Source: Roseofilum acuticapitatum BLCC-M154
GTDB taxonomy: Bacteria > Cyanobacteriota > Cyanobacteriia > Cyanobacteriales > Desertifilaceae
Assembly: GCF_030068475.1 (NCBI RefSeq)
Contig: NZ_JAQOSP010000063.1
Span: 1 to 64,000 of the forward strand
DNA length: 64,000 nt
Direction: 5' to 3'
The translations under genes and the position numbers were made by a program. Below, piece by piece: positions 59,397-64,000 of the stretch. Below the pieces are notes generated by a model. That model made no database searches and was not told where the DNA came from. It saw nothing but the letters and a program-made list of their open reading frames with translations. How positions within the stretch are numbered: the stretch's first letter is position 1; every line of letters starts with the position of its first letter.

Positions 59397-60416
59397 ATGA
59401 TGATTCTAGCAAAGAGGTTCAGTCACTTAACCCTCGCCGTTTTCACCGCTCTATCTGGGGTCAGTTGTGTGGCTAACTCCAGCATTGAAAGCACTACAGG
59501 GGAAAATACAGCCGTTGTGGAAGAGCAGGACGAGTTGGAGGTGGTGACTACATTTTTACCGATGACCCAATTTACGAAGGCTGTAGTCGGCGATCGCGCA
59601 GAAGTCGTACAATTACTACCAATCAATGTGGGCCCCCATGACTACCAAGCCAAACCTGCGGATGTTCAGGCGATCGCCCAAGCCGATATTTTAGTCAAAA
59701 ATGGCTTAGAATTAGAATCTTACCTGGATAACATGATTAAAAATGCCGAGAATAGCGATTTAATCATCGTTGATTCGAGTGCCGGTATTGAACCCTTGAG
59801 ATTTGCAGAAAAAGACCACGACCATGACCATGACCATGACCATGATCATGACCATGAAGATGGTGACCATGAAGATGAACATAGTCACGATCATGGAGAA
59901 TTCGATCCCCACATTTGGCTCGATCCTAAACGAGCCATTCAGCAAGTCGAAAATATTCGTGATGGTTTAATTTCCGTCGATCCAGAAGGACAAGAAATTT
60001 ACACTCAAAATGCGGCTGCTTTTATCGAAGAACTCAAAGCCTTAGATGCTCAAACCACCGAAAAACTGCAACCTTACGCCGGCCAAACCTTGATCACCTT
60101 CCATGATTTCGCTGCTTATTTTGCCCAGAGTTATGGTCTGAGATCCGAGTTTTTGGTGGACATCCCTGAAGAAAATCCTTCTCCTGAAGATATGCGTCGT
60201 TTAATCGAAATTGTGCAAGCCGAACAGATCAAAGCCTTGCTGCAAGAACCAGGAGTTGAAACCAAAGCCTTTGAAACCTTAGCTGAAGATCTCAAAATCA
60301 AAGTTAGCATTTTCGATCCCATTGCTATTGGAGAAACAAGCAGCAGTGAACCGACAGTTTATTTAAGAAGGATGGAAGAGAATGTGACTAATTTAGTCGA
60401 AGCTTTAAGTGACTAA
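59397..60416 (+). CDS. znuA: Zinc ABC transporter substrate-binding protein ZnuA
   Basis: This 339-residue cluster A-I binding lipoprotein has lipobox LSGVSC (Cys24), zinc-ligand histidines in VGPHDYQ (H81), FDPHIWLDP (H172) and TFHDFAAYF, and an acidic ligand near the C-terminus. A His/Asp-rich loop (about 140-168) sits between the first two, encoded by a GACCAT hexamer tract, as in zinc-type rather than manganese-type proteins. No permease or ATPase gene follows; they must be elsewhere. The upstream Zur-like box supports a role under zinc limitation. ATG 59400 is an equal start. Confidence 0.9.
   Translation: MMILAKRFSHLTLAVFTALSGVSCVANSSIESTTGENTAVVEEQDELEVVTTFLPMTQFTKAVVGDRAEVVQLLPINVGPHDYQAKPADVQAIAQADILVKNGLELESYLDNMIKNAENSDLIIVDSSAGIEPLRFAEKDHDHDHDHDHDHDHEDGDHEDEHSHDHGEFDPHIWLDPKRAIQQVENIRDGLISVDPEGQEIYTQNAAAFIEELKALDAQTTEKLQPYAGQTLITFHDFAAYFAQSYGLRSEFLVDIPEENPSPEDMRRLIEIVQAEQIKALLQEPGVETKAFETLAEDLKIKVSIFDPIAIGETSSSEPTVYLRRMEENVTNLVEALSD
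59814..59860 (+). repeat. GACCAT hexamer tract in znuA
   Basis: About seven tandem GACCAT-type units encode the alternating Asp-His tract of ZnuA. The tract is prone to length change, which would alter the metal-binding loop in frame. Confidence 0.8.
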
Positions 60417-62029: not shown

Positions 62030-63592
62030 GTGGAGAATTACACGGTTATTCTGAACAGGGCACAACTGAACCCAATTATTGGCGCGATTCAAGGACGACA
62101 GTTCCAGGAGGCGCTAAACCGGTGCGGGCAGATTCTCCAGCAAAATCCCCAAAATGGACAGGTTTGGCATCTGTTGGGTGTGACTTACTATAGTGCCGGG
62201 GATATTCAAAAGGCGATCGCAGCCTATCAAAATGCCCTTAAGGTTGACCCCAATCAACCGCAAACCCATAATAATCTAGCCACTGCCCTCGCTCAAAGCG
62301 ATCGCCCCACGGAAGCGGTAAACCATTATAAACAGGCGATCGCCCTTGCCCCTGACTATACAGAAAGTTACTATAATCTGGCGAAAACCTACAAAACCCT
62401 GGGTAACCTGGATTTAGCCCTTGAGAATTACCAAGAAGCCTTAAAACTTAATCCTGACTATACCCAAGCGCGGCAAAATTTAGGCAATCTCTATTTAGAA
62501 CAGGGAGACTATGAACCCGCTATTCTTGAGTTAAAACAGGTTATTGATCAAGTTCCCGATCATGCTGGGGTTCACTATAGCCTCGCCTTCTGTTACCATC
62601 AACAAAACGAACGCAAAGAAGCGATTTCCCATTACCAAAAAGCGCTAGATCTTAACCCAGACTATACCCAAATTCATGGTCATCTGGCTTCTCTCCTGCA
62701 TCAAGAAAACCAGATCGAGCAAGCCATTCCTCACTATGAAACCGCCCTGATTCACGATCCCAACTCGCCCAAATTGCACCACGATCTCGCTGTTGCTCTA
62801 AGCGCTCAAAAACAACTGGAAAGGGCAACACAACATTATTATCGCTCCTTAGAACTCGAACCCAATTCACCGGAAGCTCACAATAATTTAGGGGTAACTC
62901 TGAGTCAACAGGAAAAATTGGAAGAGGCGATCGCCGAATATCACAGATCCCTAGAACTCAATCCCCATTATGCCGATGCGTATAATAATCTCGCTGTTGC
63001 TCTGGATAAAATTGGAGACTATGATGGGGCGATCGCCGCTTATGAAACTTGTATTCGTCTTAAACCTGACTATGCCGAAGCTCACACGAACCTCGGTATA
63101 GCGCTCTTACTTGCCGGAGATTTTACCAACGGTTGGGCAGAATATGAATGGCGCTATCAATGGCAAACTTCTGGCCATCATAAACCCGTTTATCAGCCCC
63201 GATGGAATGGACATCCATTTAGAGGAAGAACGTTACTCCTCTATTGTGAACAAGGGTTTGGCGACTCCATCCAATTTTTGCGCTATTTGCCTTTGGTGCA
63301 AGAGCTTGGGGGAGAAGTGATTCTCGAATGTCCCCGACTGTTGATCGCATTGTTTGCAGACTTTGTAACAGAACATAGCGCTGATGGATATAAACCCGTT
63401 AGGTTAGTGCCACGGGATCAACCTTTACCCGACTATGATATTTGGGCCCCGTTGATGAGTTTGCCCTATATTTTAGGTACGACTTTAGACACCATTCCCG
63501 CATCTATTCCTTATCTTCGCGCTCCGGTTAGGGCGGGTTTAGGGCATTTACAGCCTTCTGCCTCAGATCCGGTGAGAGGGGGGCGGGTTTAG
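62030..63592 (+). CDS. TPR-repeat protein with glycosyltransferase-like C-terminal domain, 5' part (frame interrupted)
   Basis: 520 residues from GTG 62030. About ten TPR units (residues 30-370, for example GDIQKAIAAYQNALKVDPNQ) precede the start of a GT9/GT41-like domain (LLLYCEQGFGDSIQFLRYL). The frame then enters an inserted repeat and stops at TAG 63590-63592. The rest of the domain continues at 63643 in another frame. TPR-glycosyltransferases of this type modify proteins or surface glycans. The start follows the PPK2 gene by 21 bp. Confidence 0.85.
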   Translation: MENYTVILNRAQLNPIIGAIQGRQFQEALNRCGQILQQNPQNGQVWHLLGVTYYSAGDIQKAIAAYQNALKVDPNQPQTHNNLATALAQSDRPTEAVNHYKQAIALAPDYTESYYNLAKTYKTLGNLDLALENYQEALKLNPDYTQARQNLGNLYLEQGDYEPAILELKQVIDQVPDHAGVHYSLAFCYHQQNERKEAISHYQKALDLNPDYTQIHGHLASLLHQENQIEQAIPHYETALIHDPNSPKLHHDLAVALSAQKQLERATQHYYRSLELEPNSPEAHNNLGVTLSQQEKLEEAIAEYHRSLELNPHYADAYNNLAVALDKIGDYDGAIAAYETCIRLKPDYAEAHTNLGIALLLAGDFTNGWAEYEWRYQWQTSGHHKPVYQPRWNGHPFRGRTLLLYCEQGFGDSIQFLRYLPLVQELGGEVILECPRLLIALFADFVTEHSADGYKPVRLVPRDQPLPDYDIWAPLMSLPYILGTTLDTIPASIPYLRAPVRAGLGHLQPSASDPVRGGRV

Positions 63593-63637
63593 AGAGTTTA
63601 TCCTCTTCGTCCTCAGATACGGATAAACCCGCCCCTA
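63529..63637 (+). mobile_element. 109-bp MITE/REP-like insertion in TPR gene
   Basis: Ends are TAGGGCGGGTTTA and TAAACCCGCCCCTA, inverted repeats apart from one missing G on the left. Flanking CGGT occurs on both sides (63525-63528 and 63638-63641), a 4-bp target duplication. Inside, a segment starting GGGCGGGTTTAG is repeated. Removing the element and one CGGT restores the TPR frame exactly. Confidence 0.7.
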
Positions 63638-63642
63638 CGGTG

Positions 63643-64000
63643 GATGGGGCGATCGCCAAATCGGATAAATTTAAGGTGGGGTTAGCCTGGGGAGGGAATC
63701 CCAACCATGGAAACGATCGCCAACGCTCCTGTAAATTTGCCGAGCTTCTGCCCTTGTTAGACATCGAAGGAATAGACTTTTACAGCTTACAGAAAGGCGA
63801 TCGCACCCAAGAACTAGAAGGGGTAGAAAACATCACTAACCTTGACCCCATAATCCAGGACTTTGCCGACACCGCCAACCTAATTGAGCAACTCGACTTA
63901 ATCATCACCGTCGATACCTCCCTGGTACATCTAGCTGGAGCTATGGGTAAACCCACCTGGCTGTTACTCTCCTTTGTCCCCGACTGGCGCTGGATGCTCG
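63643..64000 (+). pseudogene. 3' continuation of the TPR-glycosyltransferase gene, out of frame (partial)
   Basis: The frame starting at codon 63643 reads DGAIAKSDKFKVGLAWGG and continues as a glycosyltransferase C-terminal half with NPNHGNDRQRSCKF and ITVDTSLVHLAGAMGKPTW, a typical GT9-like donor-site region. It runs off the window. It is displaced by one base from the 5' part by the element at 63529. It may be decayed, frameshifted in this strain only, or an assembly error in a G-run. Confidence 0.75.

Follow-up and report, generated by a model that had tools for sequence, protein, structure and literature searches.

Rickettsia is the lineage best known for palindromic repeats that lie in frame within genes. 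Very small mobile repeats also occur in cyanobacterial genomes, where small dispersed repeats were reportedly described by Elhai et al. in 2008 and where a MITE with terminal repeats, Nezha, is found. The repeat described here resembles these in its very small size and in its mobility in cyanobacterial genomes, but differs from Nezha in that no target duplication was seen in its family. Closer counterparts are the GTAG-tagged REPs mobilised by RAYTs (REP-associated tyrosine transposases), which comprise 24 families and occur in Cyanobacteria (Di Nocera et al. 2013, PMC3733652), and the Rickettsia palindromic elements (RPEs). In the passages that PMC10969869 and PMC3733652 devote to the work of Ogata et al. 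(2000, 2002), RPEs are described as in-frame palindromes that lie in many unrelated protein genes and encode a semi-conserved peptide.

The window (i.e., the whole stretch of 64,000 nucleotides that was analysed) holds a repeat that, judged on the architecture described for GTAG-REPs (PMC3733652), shares with them a GTAG at one end, a stem formed by a palindrome, a copy number of about 100 with both scattered and clustered members, repeats next to RAYT genes, the absence of a target duplication, and the presence of some copies within ORFs. Its stem of 12 bp falls within the 6 to 13 bp of GTAG-REPs, and its loop, at about 32 nt, exceeds the usual length. Unlike in GTAG-REPs, a separate subfamily with a 56-bp core supplies every copy found in long ORFs; in either orientation, it is read in a single register in nearly all cases. 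With RPEs, the repeat has in common the in-frame insertion of palindromes into unrelated genes and a shared peptide. However, PMC3733652 gives the RPE tag as CGTC, in contrast to GTAG here; RPEs are mostly longer and belong to an unrelated lineage, whereas a RAYT is present here and the peptide is different. The repeat is best classed as a GTAG-REP/RAYT-type repeat that acts like RPEs, and not as an RPE. Its kind is known; the interest lies in its protein-coding guise. We consider it highly probable that the whole insert is explained by a copy of a GTAG-tagged, RAYT-type palindromic repeat, together with a later indel or an assembly error at the junction of two units. Points against this explanation, detailed below, are the long loop, the clean measurement of the net length at a single site, the replacement of residues in GltB, and the deviating register of one copy in a long ORF.

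Tandem units in a TPR-glycosyltransferase gene

The original prediction placed a 109-bp element with inverted ends (63529-63637) in a TPR-glycosyltransferase gene, and the presence of a small inverted-repeat element within this gene was borne out. The gene is split between two frames (Table 1). The stop codon of the 5' ORF (TAG, 63590-63592) lies within the element. The 3' part (DGAIAKSDKFKVGLAW...) is in a frame other than that of the 5' ORF and carries Glyco_transf_9; a second glycosyltransferase-like domain follows beyond the window end. Orthologues with intact frames of 1096 to 1130 aa were found in four congeners (G001, G002, G003, and G005, where G003 is R. halophilum). The nearest congeners found for the window were R. 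halophilum BLCC-M91 and UBA2566.

Table 1. Features of the split gene and its insert (window positions)
Feature	Position	Strand	Details
5' part of TPR-glycosyltransferase gene	62030..63592	+	520 aa ORF encoding the TPR repeats plus the first half of the glycosyltransferase-9-like domain
3' part of TPR-glycosyltransferase gene, other frame	63532..64000	+	open from 63532 to past the window end
Left CGGT	63525..63528	.	host coding sequence; kept in element-free G005, CAGT in G001 and G002
Upstream second unit, degenerate or truncated	63529..63579	+	76% identity over 42 nt to 63581-63622
Interval of register loss	63532..63589	+	frame analysis; congeners intact
Repeat element proper	63577..63638	-	inner ~60 bp of the insert; GTAG tag read from 63638 to 63635 on the minus strand; 56-bp core 63580-63635
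Left hairpin arm, 12 nt (GGGGCGGGTTTA)	63580..63591	+	12/12 complementary to right arm
Right hairpin arm, 12 nt (TAAACCCGCCCC)	63624..63635	+	pairs 12/12 with left arm
Right CGGT	63638..63641	.	element end and host flank (ACG GTG GAT)

The predicted inverted ends do exist (GGGCGGGTTTA at 63531-63541 and its complement at 63624-63634), and they form a weaker arm pair than the two 12-nt arms. What had been overlooked is a tandem arrangement, in which one unit is present twice, at 63529-63579 and again at 63580-63641. The left part of the upstream copy (GTTAGGGC.GGTTTAG) is coding sequence (PVRAGL) common to the congeners, whereas the element proper shares its architecture with a family of 101 copies. 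The hairpin folds with -29.7 kcal/mol, at a z-score of only -1.7, and an Rfam search gave no match.

The linker that holds the insert, delimited by RAP and (V)D.AI.KS, varies in length across Roseofilum. It measures 26 nt in G005, 65 nt in G002, 68 nt in G001, and 89 nt in G003, all four lengths falling in one register, and 118 nt in the window. G003 carries the element in frame and exceeds G005 by 63 nt; degenerate versions are found in G001 and G002. The 118 nt of the window are made up of a degenerate unit and, in tandem behind it, a unit that forms a good palindrome with 12-bp arms. Because GTTAGGG appears in each of the five aligned Roseofilum genomes, even in G005 with its lack of a hairpin, the supposed left end belongs to the coding sequence (PVRA/PVRE), as does the left CGGT, and the 109-bp limits do not hold. 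Nor had the element freshly entered a site that was otherwise clean, as had been proposed, since the congeners carry in-frame or degenerate versions in the same linker. Conserved coding sequence in orthologues from distant genera had been named as the outcome that would speak against the original prediction. The alignment came close to it, with the element present as in-frame coding sequence in congeners, not in distant genera. The element may have been acquired by the common ancestor of the Roseofilum genomes sampled, or may have arrived more than once; it would then have decayed in G001 and G002, been lost from or never gained by G005, and been duplicated or re-inserted in the lineage of the window genome and G003.

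The gene has a second linker, just past the window (64109-64265 of contig C63), which holds two further elements in opposite orientation. They use two different registers, and both are also in frame in G005; G001 has a Pro/Ser-rich stretch in their place.

Loss of the reading frame

The two halves of the gene differ in register by one base, as had been predicted, but the break lies at the element junction (within 63532-63589) and not at the left end, where the G said to be missing is present in no orthologue. Removing 113 bp (the predicted element plus one CGGT) does join the frames arithmetically, but the short state actually observed, PVREGLEQVDGAI in G005, differs from the clean joint that was expected. 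The register was most likely lost at the junction of the two units, which includes the G-run 63578-63583.

The ratio dN/dS in comparison with G005 was 0.038/0.34 (about 0.11) upstream of the break and 0.022/0.25 (0.09) downstream; the upstream comparison with G003 was left out because an indel shifts it. By this measure, the downstream half has not evolved as a dead gene. With low values on both sides, the break is either recent, an assembly error, or recoded or bypassed. It is possible, if somewhat doubtful, that the living strain has an intact gene and that the break stems from faulty sequencing or assembly of the G-run or the hairpin. Purifying selection as strong downstream as upstream, the loss of register at a G-run adjoining a strong hairpin, and the intact orthologues of all four congeners are consistent with such an error, but the assembly is otherwise 99.84% complete and a run of six Gs is not a typical error site.

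A real frameshift that is bypassed, with ribosomal or transcriptional slippage on the G-run returning a fraction of the product to the downstream frame, is unlikely. The G-run lies directly at the hairpin, the direction of the shift is compatible with a -1 step, and the downstream half is conserved. However, the hairpin begins within the slippery run, without a spacer of 5 to 9 nt, so that programmed slippage is a weak possibility; the modest z-score of the fold also speaks against it, and the congeners lack the shift, which argues against a conserved programmed site. Under the preferred explanation, the two halves would have been put out of register at the unit junction, either by a small indel that came later or by an error of assembly.

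Copies of the repeat within other genes

Among the 101 paired cores collected genome-wide, the 57-bp class had 62 members and the 56-bp class 28. A six-frame scan placed 12 of the 28 56-bp cores, and none of the 62 57-bp cores, in ORFs of at least 300 aa (Fisher p = 1.1e-7). The 56-bp-core subfamily encodes about 21 residues in either orientation. All but one of the 12 copies in long ORFs share a single register, V-GAG[S/L]P...[E/K]PAPT; the exception, at 64109-64164 in the second linker described above, is in another register. A peptide profile search of the window genome found, by hand count, at least 19 sites in frames of at least 400 aa among the matches listed; this search is biased to the V-GAG..EPAPT register, whereas the six-frame scan of copies is unbiased.

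Exclusion of the 57-bp copies from genes by stop codons was considered and rejected: 61 of the 62 57-bp cores have a stop-free register, so that the filter probably acts on net length and not on stops. With one base more than the net length of 63 nt, which was cleanly measured at one site (G003 versus G005, first linker), the 57-bp form would shift the frame. Copies that survive would be those with a net length of about 63 nt, an open register, and a tolerant inter-domain linker as their site, where they may act as neutral spacer peptides.

The proteins with in-frame copies include GltB (glutamate synthase), HyuAB (a hydantoinase/oxoprolinase-like fusion), a CobN/ChlH-like chelatase, a TamB-like protein, a membrane protein, and Cas10/Cmr2 (a match slightly below its curated cut-off). 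In all of these except Cas10/Cmr2, the sites were compared among congeners and proved to be filled, differently filled, or empty. The GltB site, for example, is empty in G005, G001, and the outgroup G006 (another genus), and G002 and G004 carry inserts of their own; the insertion in GltB replaced about 7 residues. In G003, a compact, almost loop-less form (GTAGGGGCGGGTTTGAAACCCGCCCCTAC-like) is in frame in the GltB, CobN, and TamB-like linkers, once with PFTPAPT tandem repeats after it. The CobN and HyuAB linkers of G006 hold an unrelated in-frame tandem repeat (SAECKVLSAEWEES), and these linkers thus seem to be general landing sites.

At the TamB-like site, the elements of G003 and G001 are in opposite orientation and are 0.88 identical after inversion, a pair that suggests flipping in place that leaves the frame open. 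In-place inversion was rejected as a general source of opposite orientations. The TamB-like pair is the only one above the cross-site maximum of 0.84, which leaves room for independent insertion as the origin of opposite orientations.

A broader model can be proposed tentatively, at close to even confidence: the GTAG-REP family may be split into an intergenic form with a 57-bp core and a protein-coding form with a 56-bp core, the latter made readable in frame in both orientations by its palindrome and its net length of about 63 nt, colonising the linkers of essential enzymes throughout the genus, and able to lie inverted at one site from species to species. It is very unlikely that the host proteins benefit from the spacer peptide and that this benefit maintains the repeats, as opposed to their being tolerated selfish DNA. 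Their recurrence in the same linkers of several species and their consistent register would fit such a use, but GltB and the membrane protein have element-free orthologues, the residues derived from the loop vary freely, orientation differs between species, and the host proteins are unrelated. Many in-frame copies are found in the enzymes (e.g., glutamate synthase and a cobaltochelatase-like subunit) of a free-living cyanobacterial genus in which the RAYT is still present, and the empty-site orthologues in sister species would permit tests of how selfish hairpins turn into protein segments.

RAYT genes and target sites

The window genome contains 106 copies of GGGCGGGTTTA, compared with 4 of a reversed control, so that the inner palindrome greatly exceeds chance expectation, and the other five Roseofilum genomes contain 16 to 83. 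In more than 70% of the 101 oriented family members, GTA precedes GGGG on one side only, which yields the GTAG tag. Copies are both dispersed and clustered, with arrays on contigs C36, C48, and C76. Two Y1/RAYT-like genes (C36:56355 and C76:6182) have family repeats on both sides, within arrays, and a third (C124:27068) has them on one side only, with two copies adjoining. When the C36 and C124 proteins were scanned with the NCBIfam model REP_Tyr_transpos, the former scored above the cut-off of 80 (83.3) and the latter below it (61.6). Given this co-location, the RAYT may move the element as a single-stranded hairpin; it counts against this that the repeats close to RAYT genes are mostly of the 57-bp form.

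The search for other genomic copies that the original prediction had proposed recovered about 100 relatives of the inner element, but no target duplication and no copy of the 109-bp unit as a whole, other matches covering only part of it. For the 101 family members, target duplications of 2 to 8 bp, at all offsets, were in no case clearly above permuted flanks. CGGT does stand on both sides of the insert, but it is not a 4-bp target duplication, given the state of the left copy in the congeners (Table 1) and the absence of duplications in the family; the two CGGTs match by chance. Neither the orthologue alignment nor the flank test revealed the combination of terminal inverted repeats and a fixed-length target duplication that defines a MITE. 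A single insertion of a 109-bp MITE-like transposon with duplication of CGGT, followed by the loss of one base at the left end, is extremely improbable: the flanks, inverted ends, and 113-bp arithmetic that would fit it are outweighed by the ancestral coding nature of the left end and left CGGT and by the family-wide results above. A 4-mer that matches on both sides of short inverted ends does little to establish a target duplication.

Among other Cyanobacteria, the 15-mer end of the repeat is patchily distributed, occurring in 18 of 194 genomes with up to 124 copies (control matches, 0 to 1). Upstream of the split gene, the window also contains a metal-binding lipoprotein-like ORF (59397-60416) with a His/Asp-rich stretch (HDHDHDHD), which appears ZnuA-like from its sequence.
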